Shown here: positions 5,853 to 12,058 of the stretch, piece by piece
Numbering within the stretch: position 1 is the first letter of the stretch
How the letters are laid out: each line of letters begins with the position of its first letter
NCBI GenBank assembly: GCA_900313295.1
Contig: OMQS01000052.1
Coordinates: 1-12,058 of the forward strand
DNA length: 12,058 nucleotides
Direction of reading: 5' to 3'
DNA from: an uncultured Eubacteriales bacterium
GTDB taxonomy: Bacteria > Bacillota > Clostridia > Oscillospirales > Oscillospiraceae
Made by a program: the position numbers and the translations under genes
The notes under the pieces: model-generated
Database searches by the model: none
The model's input: only the letters and a program-made list of their open reading frames with translations
Told to the model about the DNA's origin: nothing

Positions 5853-5874
5853 GAAAAAAACAGTGTATGGGAGG
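5840..5874 (+). promoter_or_regulatory. Hairpin enclosing the yabP ribosome-binding site
   Basis: CCTCTCATACACTG (5840-5853) pairs with CAGTGTATGGGAGG (5861-5874): 13 Watson-Crick pairs and one G-U, around a loop of seven A. The 3' arm includes GGGAGG (5869-5874), the yabP Shine-Dalgarno sequence, 7 bases from ATG 5882. The 5' arm includes the sigma-E -10 element. No T-run follows, so this is not a plus-strand terminator. RNA read through from rqcP would hide the ribosome site; RNA begun at the sigma-E start would lack the 5' arm. Confidence 0.8.
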
Positions 5875-5881
5875 ATTTCTT

Positions 5882-6166
5882 ATGGCATACGAGCTGAAGC
5901 AGGCGGCGGAGCTGAGCCAGCGCATGGAGCTGACGGGACGGGAAAAGCTGACGGTGACGGGCGTGGAGGACGTGGAGCGGTTTGACGAGCTGAGCGTGGT
6001 GATGCGCACCGTGGCGGGGGTGCTGGTGGTGAGCGGGGAGGATCTGCACATAGGCAAGCTCTCTCTGGACGGCGGCGAGCTGCTGGTGGAGGGGCGCATT
6101 GACGGGCTGAACTACGAGGACGCGCCGGCGCGAAAAGGCTCCTTCTTCTCCCGCCTGCTGGGGTAA
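5882..6166 (+). CDS. yabP: Sporulation protein YabP
   Basis: The 94-residue protein belongs to the YabP/YqfC family of small sporulation proteins. It has the conserved LTVTGVEDVERFDE, the VVMRTVAGVLVVSGEDLHIGKL core and LLVEGRIDGLNYE, and ends with a basic-aromatic tail (RKGSFFSRLLG). Function is not established biochemically; it is expressed in the mother cell and is a near-universal marker of endospore formers. ATG 5882 is chosen over ATG 5867 because GGGAGG (5869-5874) is 7 bases upstream and 5867 lies inside the stem. The stop is 3 bases from yabQ, so the two are co-translated. Confidence 0.92.
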   Translation: MAYELKQAAELSQRMELTGREKLTVTGVEDVERFDELSVVMRTVAGVLVVSGEDLHIGKLSLDGGELLVEGRIDGLNYEDAPARKGSFFSRLLG

Positions 6167-6169
6167 GGC

Positions 6170-6646
6170 GTGGAACTGTATATCCGGCTGCAGCTGCAGA
6201 CCATGGGGGCAGCCTTCGGTCTGGGCTGCGGGGCGATGCTGGTGTACGACCTGCTGCGCACCGTGCGTCTGGCGCGACGCCGACGGGCAGTGACCCATGT
6301 GACGGATCTGCTGTATGTGCTGGCGGTGGGGTGGGCGCTGCTGCGGTTTGCCCTGTCCATCGGGCGGGGGGAGCTGCGGCTGTACGTGCTGCCCTGCGCC
6401 GCACTGGGCGCCTTCTTCAGCCTGAAGGTGCTGGCGCCGATTTTTCGGCCTGTTTGGCGCTTTTGGCTGGAGGCGGCGGTGCAGATGGGGCGGTATTTAT
6501 GGCGGCCGGTGCAGCTTTTTTGGCATTTTTGCAAAAAAGTATGGCATTCGGCAGAAAAAGTCATTGCCTTTTTGAAAAAAAACAGTAAAATAAAGATATA
6601 CCGAAAGAAAGGCGCGCCGCCGCAGGACGAGGAGGGGGACTCTTGA
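6170..6646 (+). CDS. yabQ: YabQ sporulation membrane protein
   Basis: The 158-residue product has three likely membrane helices (about 8-28, 45-64 and 70-93), with a basic RLARRRR loop after the first, then a cytosolic basic tail rich in Phe, Trp and Lys. This matches YabQ, needed for spore cortex formation in B. subtilis and found in the outer forespore membrane. The GTG start at 6170 follows yabP by 3 bases and has only a weak TAAGG ribosome site within yabP's end, so it likely depends on coupling. The last third is AT-richer than the surroundings and contains a candidate promoter for divIC. Its TGA overlaps the TTG start of the next gene. Confidence 0.88.
   Translation: MELYIRLQLQTMGAAFGLGCGAMLVYDLLRTVRLARRRRAVTHVTDLLYVLAVGWALLRFALSIGRGELRLYVLPCAALGAFFSLKVLAPIFRPVWRFWLEAAVQMGRYLWRPVQLFWHFCKKVWHSAEKVIAFLKKNSKIKIYRKKGAPPQDEEGDS
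6564..6591 (+). promoter_or_regulatory. Candidate sigma-A promoter for divIC inside yabQ
   Basis: TTGCCT (6564-6569) and TAAAAT (6586-6591) are separated by 16 bp that include an A-tract. This lies in a local AT-rich stretch of an otherwise GC-rich gene, about 50 bases before divIC. It would allow vegetative expression of the division gene independent of sporulation yabPQ transcription. Match is 4/6 and 5/6 to consensus; the AT-rich codons for Lys and Phe could also explain it. Confidence 0.5.
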
Positions 6647-6933
6647 AGCAGGATAAGAAGAAAAAACGCAGAGCGCCCATCACGCTGGTGGTGCTGGTGG
6701 TGCTGGTGGCCGTTGTGTCCGTGGAGCTGCTGCGGGTGTACGGGCAGCTGGGCAGCGCCAAGACCCAGCGGGACACCATGGGGCAGCAGCTGGAGGAGCA
6801 GAAAAAGGAAAACAGCGATCTGGAGTCCGATCTTGGCAAGGCCAACGACAAGGAGTTCCTCAAGGGCTTGGCCAAGGATCAGCTGGGGCTTGCCGAGGAC
6901 GGCGAGCGGATATTCTATGACGTGAACCATTAA
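6643..6933 (+). CDS. divIC: Septum formation initiator, DivIC/FtsB family
   Basis: The 96-residue protein is a bitopic membrane protein: a basic cytosolic N-terminus (MKQDKKKKRR), one helix at about 12-32, a coiled coil at 35-68 and the family's C-terminal signature (LAKDQLGLAEDGERIFYD). DivIC forms a complex with FtsL and DivIB in the divisome that controls septal peptidoglycan synthesis. The start is TTG 6643, overlapping yabQ as TTGA, with an excellent GGAGGGGG (6631-6638) site. It lies between yabQ and the S1 gene exactly as in B. subtilis. Confidence 0.9.
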   Translation: MKQDKKKKRRAPITLVVLVVLVAVVSVELLRVYGQLGSAKTQRDTMGQQLEEQKKENSDLESDLGKANDKEFLKGLAKDQLGLAEDGERIFYDVNH

Positions 6934-6969
6934 GGCGATCATTTCGTAAAGGAGAAGATACACACATTT

Positions 6970-7398
6970 ATGGAGTTGGCGGTTGGGAACATCGTCACCG
7001 GCAAGGTGACCACCATCACAAAGTTCGGCGCATTCGTGGCTCTGCCGGAGGGAAAGTCCGGCTTGGTGCACATTTCGGAGGTGGCGCCCACCTTCGTAAA
7101 CGACGTGCACGACTTCCTGTCGGAGGGGCAGGAGGTGTCCGTGAAAGTTCTGGGCATCACGCCGGAGGGGAAAATCAACCTCTCCGTGAAGCAGGCGCTG
7201 CCGAGGCCGGAGCGGCCGCAGCGACGGGAGCAGACGTACCGCCGTCCGGCAGCGCAGCCCGCCCCCGCACCTGCCGAACCGGTGGAGCAGAGCTTCGAGG
7301 ATAAGCTCAAGCAGTTCATGTCCGTGTCGGATAGCAAGCAGTCCGAGCTTAACCGCTATATAGCCGGCAAACGGGGCGGAAGCCGCCGCCGGAAATGA
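6970..7398 (+). CDS. S1 RNA-binding domain protein, YabR-like
   Basis: The 142-residue protein has one S1 domain at about 4-74 (VGNIVTGKVTTITKFGAFVALPEGKSGLVHISE...EGKINLSVKQAL). A Pro/Arg/Ala-rich linker (75-105) follows, then a conserved-looking C-terminal piece (SFEDKLKQFM...LNRYIAGKRGGSRRRK), very basic at the end. YabR-type proteins (general stress protein 13 relatives) bind RNA or ribosomes; the exact job is not settled. The ribosome site AAAGGAG (6949-6955) is 14 bases from ATG 6970, longer than usual, but no nearer in-frame start exists and the S1 domain begins at once. It is the last gene of the block. Confidence 0.9.
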   Translation: MELAVGNIVTGKVTTITKFGAFVALPEGKSGLVHISEVAPTFVNDVHDFLSEGQEVSVKVLGITPEGKINLSVKQALPRPERPQRREQTYRRPAAQPAPAPAEPVEQSFEDKLKQFMSVSDSKQSELNRYIAGKRGGSRRRK

Positions 7399-7407
7399 TT
7401 TTTCAAA

Positions 7408-7450
7408 AAAAACAGGAGCCTGACGCACAGCGCGTCAGGCTCTTTGTTTT
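7408..7450. terminator. Bidirectional intrinsic terminator
   Basis: GAGCCTGACGC (7416-7426) and GCGTCAGGCTC (7432-7442) form an 11-bp perfect stem with a 5-base loop. On the plus strand TTTGTTTTTG follows; on the minus strand the A-run at 7405-7412 reads as a U-run. It therefore ends both the S1 gene (+) and the Cys-rich protein gene (-), which converge here. Confidence 0.93.
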
Positions 7451-7457
7451 TGTTATA

Positions 7458-8555
7458 TCACCGCATTTTCTCCGAGGCGTCTTCATTCAGATGAATGGCG
7501 CCGTAGAGATTCTTGGCGCTGCAGCCGGCACGGCCGCCGCCGGCGCAGGCACAGGCGCAGGCACAGGCGCAGCTGCTGGCGCAGGCGCAATGGCTGCCGC
7601 CGCCAAAGCCGCCGCCGCCGAAACCACCGCCGCGGCTGCCGCCGCCGAAGCCGCCCCGATGGCTGTCGTTGCGGGGGGGCCGGGGACGGGTCTTCGTGCC
7701 CACGCTGCCGGGACGGGGCTTGCCGCCGGGGCCGCGGGGATACCACAGGCCGTTGACGAACACATACTGGGTGCCGAAGCCGCCCCGGTAGCGGGAAGCG
7801 CCGGAGATCACGCTGACAATGACGAACAGCACGATGAGCATGATGACGATGCCGATGATGGAAGAAATAAAGTCGCCGGTGGAATCGTCATAATGATGAT
7901 CGGGATAATTGTCCATAGGCAGGCTGTCGGCGCTGCCGTCGTCGGAGAGCTGGGTGGGCCAGTTGCTGTAGGTGACGGCCAGGGAGAGCTTGTCGCCGTA
8001 GTCCATGTTGCTGGCGGTGAGGACATGGGCGCCGTTCTGGGTGGTGCCATCGGAGGCCTCGCCGGTGACGCCCGCCGGATCGTGCCAAGTGAGAGTCATT
8101 TCATCCACCAGGATGCCGTCGAACCAGCCGGGGGTATAGTCGTAGACCACGGCGCCGCCGTTCAGCCGGTACATGTACTCCTGCACCCAACTGAAGGAGA
8201 AGGTGAACTCCTCTCCGGCGTCGTAGCCGTGGACGAAGTCCACGTATGCGTAGCTGTTGTCATTTTCAAGGTTGGCGATGTTGTCGGTGAGAGCGGTCAG
8301 CTCCCGAATGGAGCCGTTGGGAATGCCGATCTTCACGCCGCCCTGTTGGCTGTTGGCGGCGGGCAGATCCTCCAGCGCCTTCCAGCGGAAGATGAGTCGG
8401 ATGGCAAGACTGCCGTCGTTCACGCTGGGGGTCACATCCACCTGATAGGAGAGGATGCGGTCATAGTCCTGGGCAAAAGCGGTCTGAACCGTCGCGGGCA
8501 GCAGCGCCGCCAGAAGCAGGACGCTCACGAGAAGGGAAAGCAGCTTCTTTTTCAT
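7458..8555 (-). CDS. Membrane-anchored protein with Gly-rich and Cys-Ala repeat cytosolic tail
   Basis: No recognised family. The 365-residue protein has a signal peptide (1-28, cut probably after AFA), an extracellular region (29-228) with alternating aromatic and polar residues suggesting beta-sandwich folds (loosely like the N-terminal part of DUF2207 proteins, uncertain), and one helix at 230-251. A basic segment (RYRGG) then places the rest in the cytosol. The tail has a VFVNGLWYPR box (265-274), Pro/Arg-rich linker, Gly/Phe-rich repeat (301-320) and eight Cys at 323, 325, 329, 331, 333, 335, 337 and 345, seven of them in CA dipeptides. A 20-residue non-Cys end follows. ATG 8555 has AGGAGG 8 bases upstream and overlaps the radical SAM stop (ATGA). 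Co-translation and the many Cys make it the probable substrate of that enzyme. Alternatives are a metal-binding or thiol-redox tail. Confidence 0.85.
   Translation of the reverse strand: MKKKLLSLLVSVLLLAALLPATVQTAFAQDYDRILSYQVDVTPSVNDGSLAIRLIFRWKALEDLPAANSQQGGVKIGIPNGSIRELTALTDNIANLENDNSYAYVDFVHGYDAGEEFTFSFSWVQEYMYRLNGGAVVYDYTPGWFDGILVDEMTLTWHDPAGVTGEASDGTTQNGAHVLTASNMDYGDKLSLAVTYSNWPTQLSDDGSADSLPMDNYPDHHYDDSTGDFISSIIGIVIMLIVLFVIVSVISGASRYRGGFGTQYVFVNGLWYPRGPGGKPRPGSVGTKTRPRPPRNDSHRGGFGGGSRGGGFGGGGFGGGSHCACASSCACACACACAGGGRAGCSAKNLYGAIHLNEDASEKMR
7542..7589 (-). repeat. Cys-Ala coding tandem repeat
   Basis: On the minus strand, residues 329-338 are coded by TGCGCC and TGTGCC in strict alternation, a 12-bp unit present 2.5 times. 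Two further TGCGCC units encode residues 323-326, separated by AGCAGC. Such a repeat can expand or shrink by replication slippage without a frameshift. Confidence 0.9.
7596..7655 (-). repeat. Gly/Phe-rich low-complexity coding repeat
   Basis: Residues 301-320 of the minus-strand protein are GGF/GGGS/GGGF repeats, coded mostly by GGC. It forms a flexible linker just before the Cys cluster. The same DNA opens a spurious plus-strand frame. Confidence 0.85.
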
Positions 8556-9943
8556 GCTTCCGCCTCCTTTCGGTTGCCGGTCTGGAGCTGGCAGATGTGC
8601 TCCATTTTGGCGCTTTCGGCGCGGATGGCCGCGCATTGGGGATCCGTCCAGATCTTCTCCCACGGGTCGGTGAGAATGTTGCCCAGAGTCACGCCGCCCA
8701 GCCAGCTCTGGCAGGGGACGACGGTGCCGTCGGGGGTGATGGCCATGTTGCTCAGGCACGCGCCGCAGGAGGGGATGAGCCGCAGACCGAGGCCGCGCAG
8801 CGTCTCCTCCGGCAGCCAGTCGGGGCTGGTGAAGTCCAGCTCCATGCCCAGACTCGCGGCGATCTCCATGGCGTCGCGGAGAACGTCCTCCAGCTCGGCG
8901 GCGGAAAGACGGGTGGCGACGCTGCCCTCGGTGGTGGCGCTGCCGGAGGGGATAAGGCCGGAGCAGGTGGCATAGCGCACGCCCAGCGAGGCGGCGAAGC
9001 GAAGCGTGTCGGCATAGTCGCGGTTCACGCTGCAAAGGGGCGTGTTGACGGACACGATAAGCCCCGCAGCCACGGCATTTTTGATGCCGGCCACGGTGTC
9101 GCCGAAGCCGTCCACCCCCACGAGGGCGTTGTGTACGGCGGCCTTGTCGCTGTAAAGCGTCACCTGCACGCTGTCGAGGCTGGCTTCATACAGCGCCTTG
9201 CACAGCTCCGGCGTCAGACGGCGGCCGTTGGTGTTCAGCCGCGTGACGAACCACTGGGCGGCGTCCACCAGCTCCACCAGATCGCCCCGCAGAGTCGGCT
9301 CGCCGCCGGTGAAGGTGACTTGGGGGATGTTGGCCGCCTGCAGGCGCTTCAGAACTTCCTTCCACTGAGCGGCATCCAGCTCCTTTACTTCGCCCATAGG
9401 CTGGCCGGCGGCGTAGCAGTGCAGGCATTTCTGGTTGCAGTGCCACAGGCCGTCGCGGGTCATGGCGCTGACCATGAGATCCATGCGGTGGGGGGCGGAC
9501 ATCTTGTCGGCGTACTCGCCCAGAGACAGGGGGGCTACCTCCACCTCCGGTTCCTCGCCTCGGGCGATGGCCACCAGAGAGCGCAGCAGAATGCCCATGT
9601 CCTCCCGCAGCACCTCGGCCTTTACAAAGGGATAGACCTTTTTCTTGGCGCCGCGGACGGCCTGCTCCAGCATGGAGTCCCAGTCGTCGGCGCTGATCTC
9701 CAGCCCAGCGTAAGGCTCCATGCAGTACATGAACTCCGACAGCAGCACTGCCCAGGAGAAGTTCAGCGGCACCAGCTGCGCGCCGTTGAGCAGCAGCAAA
9801 AACGGGTCCTCCGGGGACTGGGAGTGGGGCGGGATCATATGGATGCGCACCACGCCGGGGCCCGTGGGATCCAGGGTAATATGACGCACGCAAGCTAAGT
9901 GCTTGCGGCGATAGTTGCTTTCCAAAAGGGATAAATGGCGCAT
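8552..9943 (-). CDS. Radical SAM protein with partial SPASM region, probable peptide maturase
   Basis: The 463-residue protein has an N-terminal region (1-150) of unknown type. Its middle (LLLLNGAQLVPLNFSWAVLL) loosely resembles a PqqD/RRE-like peptide-binding fold, but I cannot confirm this. The radical SAM core has Cys169, Cys173 and Cys176 in CNQKCLHCYA, FTGGEPTLRGD (211-221) and LNTNG (236-240). The C-terminus has CGAC (393-396) and PDGTVVPC (404-411, the GxxxxC of SPASM/twitch), GNILTDPWEKIW, then Cys437 and Cys451. The full SPASM run CxxCxxxxxCxxxC is absent, so probably one auxiliary cluster. Such enzymes modify peptides (thioethers, epimers, cross-links). ATG 9943 has GAGGAGG 7-8 bases upstream. 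It overlaps the Cys-rich gene, its likely substrate. Confidence 0.9.
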   Translation of the reverse strand: MRHLSLLESNYRRKHLACVRHITLDPTGPGVVRIHMIPPHSQSPEDPFLLLLNGAQLVPLNFSWAVLLSEFMYCMEPYAGLEISADDWDSMLEQAVRGAKKKVYPFVKAEVLREDMGILLRSLVAIARGEEPEVEVAPLSLGEYADKMSAPHRMDLMVSAMTRDGLWHCNQKCLHCYAAGQPMGEVKELDAAQWKEVLKRLQAANIPQVTFTGGEPTLRGDLVELVDAAQWFVTRLNTNGRRLTPELCKALYEASLDSVQVTLYSDKAAVHNALVGVDGFGDTVAGIKNAVAAGLIVSVNTPLCSVNRDYADTLRFAASLGVRYATCSGLIPSGSATTEGSVATRLSAAELEDVLRDAMEIAASLGMELDFTSPDWLPEETLRGLGLRLIPSCGACLSNMAITPDGTVVPCQSWLGGVTLGNILTDPWEKIWTDPQCAAIRAESAKMEHICQLQTGNRKEAEA

Positions 9944-9972: not shown

Positions 9973-10001
9973 AGTATAGCAACATGGCGGCAAAATGGCA
10001 A
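9973..10001 (-). promoter_or_regulatory. Sigma-A-like promoter of the radical SAM operon
   Basis: On the minus strand, TTGCCA (10001-9996) and TATACT (9978-9973) are separated by exactly 17 bp. The start would be near 9966, giving a leader of about 22 bases with a strong GAGGAGG. Match to consensus is 5/6 in each element. Confidence 0.75.
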
Positions 10002-10290: not shown

Positions 10291-10827
10291 ATGAAGTTCA
10301 CATTTACCTGCAAGAAAGTGCCCCTGAACGATTCCGTGAAAGACTACGCCGAGAAGAAGATCAGCAAGCTGGATCGGTACTTCCCGGAGGAAGCCGAGGC
10401 ATTTGTGACCTTCGCCGTGGAGAAGAAAAACCGCTGTGTGGTGGAGCTGACCATCCGCAGCCAGAACGGCACCCTGTTCCGCGCCCAGGAGGAAGATCGC
10501 GACGGCGATATGCGGGGCGCCATTGACGAGGCCGTGAGTTTTATCGACCGCCGCATCCGCAAGAACAAGACCCGTCTGGCAAAGAACCTGCGTGCAGAGG
10601 CGCTGGTGCCGGAGGTGCCGGCGGAGTTCGACGTGGCGGAGGAGCCGGCCTACGATCTGGTGCGCACCAAGCGCTTCACCGTGAAGCCCATGAGCACCGA
10701 GGAGGCGATTCTGCAGATGAACCTGCTGGATCACAGCTTCTATGTCTTCCGCAACGTGGAAACGGAGACGGTGAGCGTGGTCTATCGCCGCAACAACGGC
10801 GGCTACGGCCTCATCGAAACCGACTGA
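10291..10827 (+). CDS. hpf: Ribosome hibernation-promoting factor, long form
   Basis: The 178-residue protein has the N-terminal RaiA/YfiA fold (1-100: MKFTFTCKKVPLNDSVKDYAEKK start, beta-alpha-beta, basic helix IDRRIRKNKTRL at 85-96), an acidic linker, and the C-terminal long-HPF domain (124-178: VRTKRFTVKPMSTEEAILQMNLLDHSF...NNGGYGLIE). The long form dimerises 70S ribosomes into inactive 100S particles in stationary phase. Ribosome site AAAGGAG (10275-10281) is 9 bases before ATG. It is a single-gene unit with its own promoter and terminator; the Spo0A-box matches upstream suggest control by starvation or sporulation onset. Confidence 0.96.
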   Translation: MKFTFTCKKVPLNDSVKDYAEKKISKLDRYFPEEAEAFVTFAVEKKNRCVVELTIRSQNGTLFRAQEEDRDGDMRGAIDEAVSFIDRRIRKNKTRLAKNLRAEALVPEVPAEFDVAEEPAYDLVRTKRFTVKPMSTEEAILQMNLLDHSFYVFRNVETETVSVVYRRNNGGYGLIETD

Positions 10828-10843
10828 CAACATTATATAGTGC

Positions 10844-10873
10844 AAGGTCGGGGCATTTGCCCCGACCTTTTTT
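10844..10873 (+). terminator. Intrinsic terminator after hpf
   Basis: AAGGTCGGGGCA (10844-10855) and TGCCCCGACCTT (10858-10869) form a 12-bp perfect stem with a tiny loop, and the U-run continues to 10873. Confidence 0.94.
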
Positions 10874-10916
10874 GCGCGCTGCCGCCCGAAACGCACCGCT
10901 CCCTCCCTTGCTCTCC

Positions 10917-10945
10917 GTAGGAGCGGACGCCCCTGTCCGCCCCCG
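10917..10945. repeat. GTAGG...GCGGAC/GTCCGC intergenic repeat
   Basis: GCGGAC (10923-10928) and GTCCGC (10935-10940) are inverted around GCCCCT, preceded by GTAGG and followed by CCCCCG. The arrangement parallels the element at 21-52 and suggests the same type of short dispersed repeat. No gene overlaps it. Confidence 0.5.
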
Positions 10946-10982
10946 ACACGCCTCCAAACCCGAAACAGACCGCTTTTCCGCC

Positions 10983-11011
10983 TTGCATTATGCGCAAAAA
11001 AGCGGCATAAT
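10983..11011 (+). promoter_or_regulatory. Candidate promoter with overlapping palindrome before the alcohol dehydrogenase
   Basis: TTGCAT (10983-10988) and CATAAT (11006-11011) are spaced by 17 bp. ATTATGC (10987-10993) and GCATAAT (11005-11011) are inverted repeats covering the spacer and -10, so a dimeric regulator bound there would block or adjust the promoter. Start would be near 11018, leaving a leader of about 20 bases. Confidence 0.5.
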
Positions 11012-11036
11012 AGGGTTCAGAGAGGATGTGAAAGCC

Positions 11037-12058
11037 ATGCTGCTGAAAAAAATATATTGCCGGATCTTTCAGGCGGCATTTGCGCTGGGTGCGCGGGTGC
11101 TGCCGTGGCGGAAACCGAAGTGCTGCACGGGAGCAGGAAGCCTTGCGCGGCTGCCGGAGCTGCTGAAGGACGCCGGATGCAAAAAGCCCATGATCGTGGC
11201 CAGCCGCCGCCAGTGCGCCGCATCGGAATTCATCGCCATGACGGAAAAGCTGCCGGCATGGAGCGGGTTTCACGCGGTGACGGCCAACCCCAGGATCGAA
11301 ACCGTGGAGCAGATGGTGCGGCAGTTCCGCGCCGAAGGGTGCGACAGTCTGGTGGCCATCGGCGGCGGCTCGCCTATGGACGCCGCCAAGGCCGCAGCGG
11401 CGCGGCTGGCTCGCCCGAACCGCACCGTGGCGCAGATGAAGGGGCTTTTGCGGGTGCGAAAAAAAATCGTGCCCTTTGCGGCGGTGCCCACCACTGCCGG
11501 CACGGGGTCGGAAACCACCATTGCCGCCGTGGTGACGGACGAGGCGCACCACAAGTACGCCGTCAGCGACCTGTGCCTGATCCCCCGCTGGGCGATCCTG
11601 GATCCGGAGCTTACGGTGTCCCTGCCGGCCTCCGTCACGGCGGAAACGGGCATGGACGCCCTGACCCACGCCGTGGAGGCGTATACCAATATATTATATA
11701 ATACAAAGGAAACGCGGACGCTGGCGCGGCAGGCGGTGGCGGCCATTTTCGAGTTTTTGCCCAGAGCCTGCGCCGACGGAAACGACCTGCAGGCGCGGCA
11801 GGAGCTGCTCACGGCGTCCTATCGGGCGGGCTTTGCCTTCACCCGTGCCAGCGTTGGAAACGTCCACGCCATCGCCCACACGCTGGGGGGGCTTTACGAC
11901 GTGCCCCACGGGCGCGCCAACGCCGTGCTGCTGCCGGTGGTGCTGGAGGAGTACGGCGCTGCGGCGCACAAGCGGCTGGCAGAGCTGGCGGACGTGGTGG
12001 GTCTGTGCCCCGCGGGGAGCACGGCGGAGAAGGCGCGGGCGTTCATCGCCGCCATTTA
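11037..12058 (+). CDS. Iron-containing alcohol dehydrogenase (3' end beyond window)
   Basis: An open frame runs from ATG 11037 to the window edge without a stop, 340 codons of an expected 380-400. It is a group III (Fe-ADH) protein: an NAD(P)-binding domain with GGGSPMDAAK (109-118) and PTTAGTGSETT (151-161), and a helical metal domain with Asp207, His211 (MDALTHAVEAYT), His277 (NVHAIAHTLGG) and His291 (PHGRANAVLLP). The spacing is as in FucO, so iron binding looks intact. The N-terminus MLLKKIYCRIFQ...LPWRKP is typical of a clostridial subgroup. Likely an NAD(P)-linked alcohol or aldehyde reductase in fermentation; the substrate is unknown. The ribosome site is GAGAGGA (11020-11026), about 10 bases upstream. 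Confidence 0.93.
   Translation, partial: MLLKKIYCRIFQAAFALGARVLPWRKPKCCTGAGSLARLPELLKDAGCKKPMIVASRRQCAASEFIAMTEKLPAWSGFHAVTANPRIETVEQMVRQFRAEGCDSLVAIGGGSPMDAAKAAAARLARPNRTVAQMKGLLRVRKKIVPFAAVPTTAGTGSETTIAAVVTDEAHHKYAVSDLCLIPRWAILDPELTVSLPASVTAETGMDALTHAVEAYTNILYNTKETRTLARQAVAAIFEFLPRACADGNDLQARQELLTASYRAGFAFTRASVGNVHAIAHTLGGLYDVPHGRANAVLLPVVLEEYGAAAHKRLAELADVVGLCPAGSTAEKARAFIAAI

Follow-up and report, generated by a model that had tools for sequence, protein, structure and literature searches.

A conserved gene pair joins a radical SAM enzyme to a membrane protein with a Cys-Ala tail, its putative substrate

What does a radical S-adenosylmethionine (SAM) enzyme do next to a membrane protein that ends in a run of Cys-Ala dipeptides? 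The question is raised by contig OMQS01000052.1 of an uncultured Eubacteriales bacterium, the whole 12,058 nucleotides of which are called the window here. The two genes lie on its minus strand and share the ATGA at 8555..8552, and the region under study ends at position 9943 with the start codon of the enzyme gene:

8552..9943, minus strand: radical SAM/SPASM (Twitch-like) enzyme (P0002), 463 amino acids (translation; Pfam Radical_SAM 3.3e-19, SPASM 1.1e-10)
7458..8555, minus strand: Cys-Ala-tailed membrane protein (P0001), 365 amino acids (translation; phmmer homologues)

The enzyme and the tailed protein are present together or absent together in the samples searched. This co-occurrence suggests that the enzyme chemically alters the tail while it is attached to the membrane protein. 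Our model is that the membrane protein stays uncleaved and that its cytosolic Cys-Ala tail is modified by the co-encoded enzyme, most likely with thioether cross-links; the model as a whole is probably correct. Judged from the sequences, it is highly probable that the enzyme acts on the tail, and the chances that the product is a thioether are about even.

The initial annotation held that tail homologues found often without the enzyme would speak against such a role. Order, class, phylum and genus samples were searched for this, and the two proteins kept company in all of them. The enzyme was counted at E <= 1e-60, with weaker enzyme relatives lacking the tail standing outside the counts. The genomes were not picked by tail pattern, but the tail itself forms part of the tail profiles; G000 and some negative genomes recur across the order, class and phylum samples. 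The enzyme is found in 3/245 genomes of the order sample, and a Cys-Ala-tailed protein in the same three; the tail profile matches four, one of them weakly (G082) and without a Cys-Ala tail. In the class sample eight of 341 genomes encode the enzyme and the same eight the Cys-Ala-tailed protein, while the tail profile matches 14, comprising these eight and six weak matches (G281, G304, G374, G391, G550 and G601). The weak matches of both samples were left out of the pair counts. That of G374 was aligned together with the DUF2207 proteins of G281, G550 and G601. Fifteen of the 388 genomes of the phylum sample have the enzyme, each with a tail-type protein next to it, which in G935 has its tail end masked. 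The tail profile matches 13 genomes, all within these 15, and in G608 and G613 a Cys-Ala-tailed open reading frame (ORF) lies beside the enzyme. Within the genus the tail occurs in 26 of 32 genomes. Nineteen congeners were tested for the enzyme, which is present in all 13 of those drawn from the 26 tail-positive genomes and in none of the six tail-negative ones.

A scan of named genomes gave at least 45 loci with the tail protein, under titles of Oscillospiraceae, Lachnospiraceae, other Clostridia and Bacillota, Acholeplasmatales, Anaeroplasma and a Bacilli bacterium. These 45 were picked by Cys-Ala peptide patterns, and therefore test gene pairing rather than tail conservation; most of the named genomes are metagenome-assembled. 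The enzyme adjoins the tail gene in 44 of the 45 loci listed, the exception being L056, where the contig ends inside the tail gene. With start codons picked by script, 45 enzyme-tail pairs could be placed in 42 named loci. The order is enzyme then tail on the same strand in 41, of which 30 overlap (12 by exactly four bases) and 36 overlap or lie no more than 30 bases apart. The remaining pairs are one with the tail gene first and three divergent second copies. In L039, L045 and L047 a single enzyme gene goes with two divergent tail-protein genes, and in G508 (L069 and L079) with two in tandem. The loci have no third gene in common, no neighbour family being found at more than eight of the 45. 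Nor, among the neighbour families annotated (those in at least four of the 45 loci), is there a leader protease or exporter common to them, in keeping with the initial observation that the window contains neither a protease nor an ABC exporter. An ABC-type ATPase, judged by eye, is near 5/45 loci. Three single-ORF enzyme-tail fusions (P0031, P0034 and P0153) were considered as Rosetta-stone evidence and rejected, because they are missing either the enzyme's C-terminal half or the bulk of the ectodomain; they look like deletion or assembly chimeras.

The pairs fall into three clades. Clade A contains the window and the loci of the named-genome scan, the order sample and the class sample. Clade B comprises 10 genomes in two families, with tails of the form GCxCVSCACACVSCACACACAGG[G/R]GAGC in the eight that can be read; one is cut and one is masked. 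Clade C is made up of four genomes in two families. Its protein is longer, with the extreme C-terminus CACACACACA[SS/GG]GGCT. Clade C thus shows that residues downstream of the last Cys-Thr are dispensable, which limits the possible cross-link partners within its tail to Cys, Ala, Gly, Ser and Thr. The gene order is reversed in clade C, as it is in G508. This variation bears on whether the two genes are simply neighbours by descent, with the enzyme acting on some other substrate. Such hitchhiking would accord with a pairing drawn from genomes alone, most of the named ones metagenome-assembled. The pair persists, however, although order and strand vary, and presence and absence agree across the samples, including the six congeners that lack both genes. 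We consider hitchhiking very improbable.

The tailed protein is divided as follows, residue numbers being those of P0001 and pN/pS the ratio of nonsynonymous to synonymous polymorphism:

8472..8555, minus strand: putative signal peptide, approximately residues 1-28 (sequence by eye)
7872..8471, minus strand: predicted extracellular DUF2207-like domain, approximately residues 29-228, acidic (hhalign, Pfam of relatives, charge count)
7803..7871, minus strand: predicted transmembrane segment, approximately residues 229-251 (hydropathy maximum, 19-residue windows starting at 229-233)
7593..7655, minus strand: Gly-rich linker, residues 301-321 (sequence; pN/pS 0.17)
7503..7592, minus strand: poly-(Cys-Ala) tail HCACASSCACACACACAGGGRAGCSAKNLY, residues 322-351, presumed modification site (alignments; pN/pS 0.019)

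The protein ends in GGFGGGSRGGGFGGGGFGGGS-HCACASSCACACACACAGGGRAGC-SAKNLYG... and the Gly-rich linker and eight Cys initially described are confirmed. The Cys lie at 323-345, all in the last 45 residues, with seven of them in Cys-Ala dipeptides, and the tail HCACASSCACACACACAGGGRAGCSAKNLYG contains every Cys of the protein. The pattern (Cys-Ala)n-GGGRAGC[S/T]xK is near-invariant among relatives, with ectodomain identity dropping to about 30%. At E <= 0.001 at least 2355 homologues were found among 8000 scored candidates (phmmer). CACACA occurs in 119/120 of the matches listed, the exception (P0021) having an unrelated end, and in 70/70 further proteins (P0123-P0192), where it is nearly guaranteed since these were found with the tail itself as query. 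In a 48-member alignment, most members of which come from loci picked by Cys-Ala patterns, identity to P0001 falls to 27% and CACACACACAGGGRA, the next Cys and a Lys are invariant. Among the 58 distinct tails of clade A, 52 carry the linker GGGRAG, and two of the remaining six are truncated where the contig stops. In these tails the final Cys-Ala block has five repeats in 25, six in 29, seven in two, and four and two in one each; the two-repeat tail is a G508 copy with a Cys to Tyr change. Not counted among the 58 are L001, L002 and L005-L020, duplicates as judged from the last 60 residues, and fragments of up to 200 amino acids. Within this last block Ala is as constant as Cys. In a subclade of three genomes (G502, G573 and G581; L084, L070 and L072) the protein has RVGCSERGYQVLHWL at its end instead of RAGCSxKDFY.

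Conservation at the level of protein was examined in 13 genes, those of the window, 11 congeners (L010-L020) and L021; in this set the sites are near saturation, the L016 and L021 proteins are identical, and the start of L018 is misplaced. The tail has a pN/pS of 0.019 (at a pS of 0.43), compared with 0.17 for the Gly linker and 0.54 for the ectodomain. On this contrast a chance low-complexity ORF was rejected. Since the protein is constant despite common synonymous changes, and has at least 2355 homologues, the tail is more than a product of chance.

Such a tail could instead serve as a scaffold for metal or Fe-S clusters, its free Cys thiolates lined up along one face of a strand; the enzyme would then mature or load it, or act elsewhere, without cross-linking Cys. 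The dense Cys-x-Cys spacing would suit this, as would the zinc ribbon found in the cytosolic part of some clade A members (Zn_ribbon_3 and Zn_Ribbon_1, 7/48 each; Pfam). A scaffold should not demand Ala at every second position, yet the Ala is as constant as the Cys, and the pairing with a radical SAM enzyme is left in need of a reason. We therefore think this reading unlikely.

The modified-tail model places the tail in the cytosol. Residues 29-227 of the ectodomain contain eight Lys and Arg versus 31 Asp and Glu, and the basic stretch that follows the helix (253-322) has 11 versus one. By the positive-inside rule the tail should be cytosolic, where the enzyme would be, and the single helix would tether it to the membrane, as had been proposed at the outset. 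Neither Pfam nor NCBIfam gives a significant match for P0001 itself. Fourteen of the 48 tail-protein relatives match Pfam DUF2207 at E <= 0.1 (best 1.1e-4), and hhalign gives 95.5% (E 1.6e-8) for the clade A ectodomain against four DUF2207 proteins. Directly against the DUF2207 set clade B scores 11.6% and clade C 1.0%, yet they reach 99.9% and 96.4% against clade A in profile comparison. We read the ectodomain as a distant relative of DUF2207 (PF09972). DUF2207 proteins share with the tailed proteins an apparently related extracellular domain followed by a transmembrane helix. They differ in that plain DUF2207 proteins occur in three class-sample genomes without the enzyme (G281, G550 and G601; Pfam), and DUF2207_C (PF20990) is not among the 12 Pfam families matched by the 48 tail proteins. 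It is thus the tail, and not the ectodomain, that tracks the enzyme. At the clade B loci L111, L113 and L114 the Cys-Ala-tailed frame continues without a stop into a TPM-domain, lipoprotein-like segment; L114, the one that was scanned, matches Pfam TPM_phosphatase (9.3e-9). Some species may therefore fuse the tail protein and a TPM domain, an internal start being a possible alternative to read-through. TPM domains have been linked to PspA operons (PMC11237479, here and below papers being cited from excerpts of their text).

The enzyme has three parts of note:

9464..9943, minus strand: N-terminal domain, approximately residues 1-160, candidate peptide-recognition region, not proven to be a RiPP (ribosomally synthesized and post-translationally modified peptide) recognition element (RRE) (hhalign)
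9416..9439, minus strand: CxxxCxxC radical SAM cluster motif, C169, C173 and C176 (alignment)
8588..8767, minus strand: reduced SPASM domain, C393, C411 and C451 kept and the CxxCx5C set lost (Pfam, alignment)

The alignment contains 44 clade A, six of the 10 clade B, and four clade C enzymes. The CxxxCxxC motif is present in all 54 (44/44, 6/6 and 4/4). In clade A the CxxCx5C set is found in 0/44, with Cys retained at 393, 411 and 451, and the partial SPASM region of the initial annotation agrees with this; clades B and C retain the SPASM cysteines, including the CxxCx5C set. The ligands were assigned by eye from those quoted in excerpts of PMC6231123 and PMC8188230. Clade A thus lacks the seven Cys of a full SPASM domain with two auxiliary clusters, and a Twitch domain fits instead. 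We take it that the clade of the window has lost the second auxiliary cluster and is left with a Twitch-like domain. The N-terminal domains of clades A and B correspond at 99.4% (hhalign), the match to clade C being weak (7.6% and 28.1%). On the clade C enzyme L106 an AlbA model match begins at residue 52, upstream of the radical SAM domain, and the ACGX and PapB radical SAM models are among the weak matches of clade C enzymes. A viperin-like role in defence was rejected; the PADLOC pVip match (1.2e-13) spans only residues 168-279 of the radical SAM core, and the viperin model scores 41.3 bits against a cut-off of 180.

The enzyme might alternatively be an epimerase, converting alternate tail residues to the D form to give a coiled or beta-helical, Cys-lined segment. 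A two-residue repeat would suit an epimerase with a 1,3 pattern, such as PoyD in the account excerpted from PMC8326336, YydG is a weak match in the enzyme profile search (E 0.007), and the extra Cys304, invariant in clade A (44/44), could serve as H-donor. Epimerization needs no Cys in the substrate, however, and Cys304 is absent from clades B (0/6) and C (0/4), whose partner proteins retain the tail. This makes an epimerase distinctly unlikely.

If the enzyme does cross-link the tail, the course of events could be as follows. The DUF2207-like protein would be exported via its N-terminus and held by one transmembrane helix, so that the C-terminal (Cys-Ala)n tail stays in the cytosol. The enzyme, with its radical cluster and, in clade A, probably one auxiliary cluster, would bind the tail and then modify it by linking the sulfur atoms of its Cys to carbon atoms of neighbouring residues. 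Ala would be the sole partner available in each repeat, and Cys-to-Ala thioethers are favoured because both residues are constant in the last block. Ala is known as a sactionine acceptor from Cys5-Ala12 of ruminococcin C1 (PMC8172795). The product would be a cross-linked hairpin closed around the GGGRAGC turn, and without need of cleavage or export would remain a membrane protein with a modified cytosolic module.

Several observations weigh against this model. The chemistry of the tail is inferred from genes and sequences alone, and metal binding by free thiols would suit the alternating Cys ladder as well. P0002 scores 53.6 bits on the SkfB model against a cut-off of 300, and lies far under the thioether-maturase models listed. 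No Pfam or PDB sequence-profile match to an RRE or PqqD domain was found in the enzyme. The pairing is imperfect in three genomes. Next to the enzyme in G581 is an 89-residue piece from the N-terminus of the tail protein, and the remainder, with the Cys-Ala end, is found about 2.1 kb off, which points to an interrupted or doubled gene; in G502 a TAA near the N-terminus breaks the enzyme frame and the Cys-Ala end is on another contig; in G250 the tail match contains one TAG. The enzyme matches of G116 and G573 also include stop codons, with nearly the whole score coming from one long ORF.

Among solved structures the best profile match of the enzyme is to SkfB (E 2.1e-22), a sactisynthase whose Twitch domain holds one auxiliary cluster (PMC6231123). 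The two systems have in common a radical SAM core, a SPASM domain reduced to Twitch for one auxiliary cluster, and a Cys-containing target. Where SKF has a short leader-core peptide as its target, the enzyme here presumably acts on the C-terminal tail of a membrane protein of full size; the loci have no protease or exporter in common among their annotated neighbour families, and an RRE was not detected by sequence. Sactipeptides and ranthipeptides as classes likewise have short leader-core precursors, with a leader protease and exporter in the cluster; the candidate substrate here is a membrane protein of approximately 300-500 amino acids, and the annotated families of the 45 loci include no such shared genes. 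CXXX-repeat, ACGX and SCIFF/ranthipeptide systems resemble the pair in having Cys-rich peptides beside radical SAM/SPASM genes. CXXX-repeat and ACGX targets are short peptides with other Cys spacing, and are set apart by description only. QhpC, the gamma subunit of quinohemoprotein amine dehydrogenase, is the target of QhpD and belongs to a soluble enzyme. SCIFF is again a short peptide with another Cys spacing, set apart by its excerpted description only (PMC8326336). QhpD is a precedent for thioethers made by a radical SAM enzyme within a protein that is left whole (PMC8172795). Unlike the present case it targets Cys-Asp/Glu pairs, and excerpts of the same paper describe neither a Cys-Ala repeat nor a membrane anchor for QhpC.

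The pair is bounded by two consensus matches, in line with the shared promoter and terminator, and with the ATGA overlap the two-gene unit, of the initial annotation:

9973..10001, minus strand: promoter-like site, sigma-70-like, TTGCCA-17-TATACT with TG (consensus match only)
7414..7444, both strands (plus 7414-7444, minus 7442-7416): bidirectional terminator-like hairpin, 12-13 pairs (consensus match only)

The sigma-70-like site (10001..9973) ends about 30 bases upstream of the enzyme gene. By consensus matching three promoter-like sites were found versus 0.5 expected, and five terminator-like versus 2.5. On the plus strand the unit is adjoined by YabP, YabQ and S1-domain genes (5867-7398) and, on the other side, by S30AE (HPF-like) and iron alcohol dehydrogenase genes (10291-12056). 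A phage or plasmid origin of the pair is unsupported; 0/600 pattern-matching viral stretches encode a relative, and there is no plasmid match at E <= 1e-40. The one match in the phage collection is L123 (MT837216.1, 2479-5087), an unverified bacteriophage entry. This 7.4-kb human-faecal scaffold carries the pair with its ATGA overlap and bacterial-looking flanking genes. Probably a bacterial contig filed in error, it places the pair in the human gut.

The initial interpretation stands as regards the two-gene unit, the co-occurrence and the membrane-tethered tail; it had missed the DUF2207-like ectodomain and the reduction of SPASM. It could match the system to no named family, and we likewise found no pair-specific Pfam, NCBIfam or PADLOC model; the best 25 of the 57-70 NCBIfam models matched per enzyme all fall below cut-off, as do the best 25 of 60 for P0002. 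Among the matches listed in the open-licence literature, subscription papers being outside its scope, none describes the pair, and a term search of PMC9062424 gave no match to it. What we call new is the apparent application of radical SAM peptide modification, a known chemistry, to the tail of an uncleaved membrane protein. We lean slightly towards a new class of post-translational modification, in which a cross-linked (Cys-Ala)n module, made by a dedicated radical SAM enzyme, would be kept on the cytosolic end of a DUF2207-like membrane protein and would work in the envelope as a sensor, as a redox element or structurally; it would span three distant clades of the phylum to which the window belongs. 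The case for a physiological role is weak. The Streptococcus mutans DUF2207 member SMU.243 is required for tolerance of acid and oxidative stress (PMC10457818), and by analogy the pair may have a role in stress tolerance. If the model is true, radical SAM peptide chemistry would reach from secreted natural products to resident membrane proteins, with RiPP chemistry serving a permanent part of a membrane protein instead of a secreted peptide. A gene pair frequent in gut metagenomes would gain a testable function, and a two-gene system whose substrate motif is very simple and under strong constraint would offer a model for how one enzyme works along a repeat.

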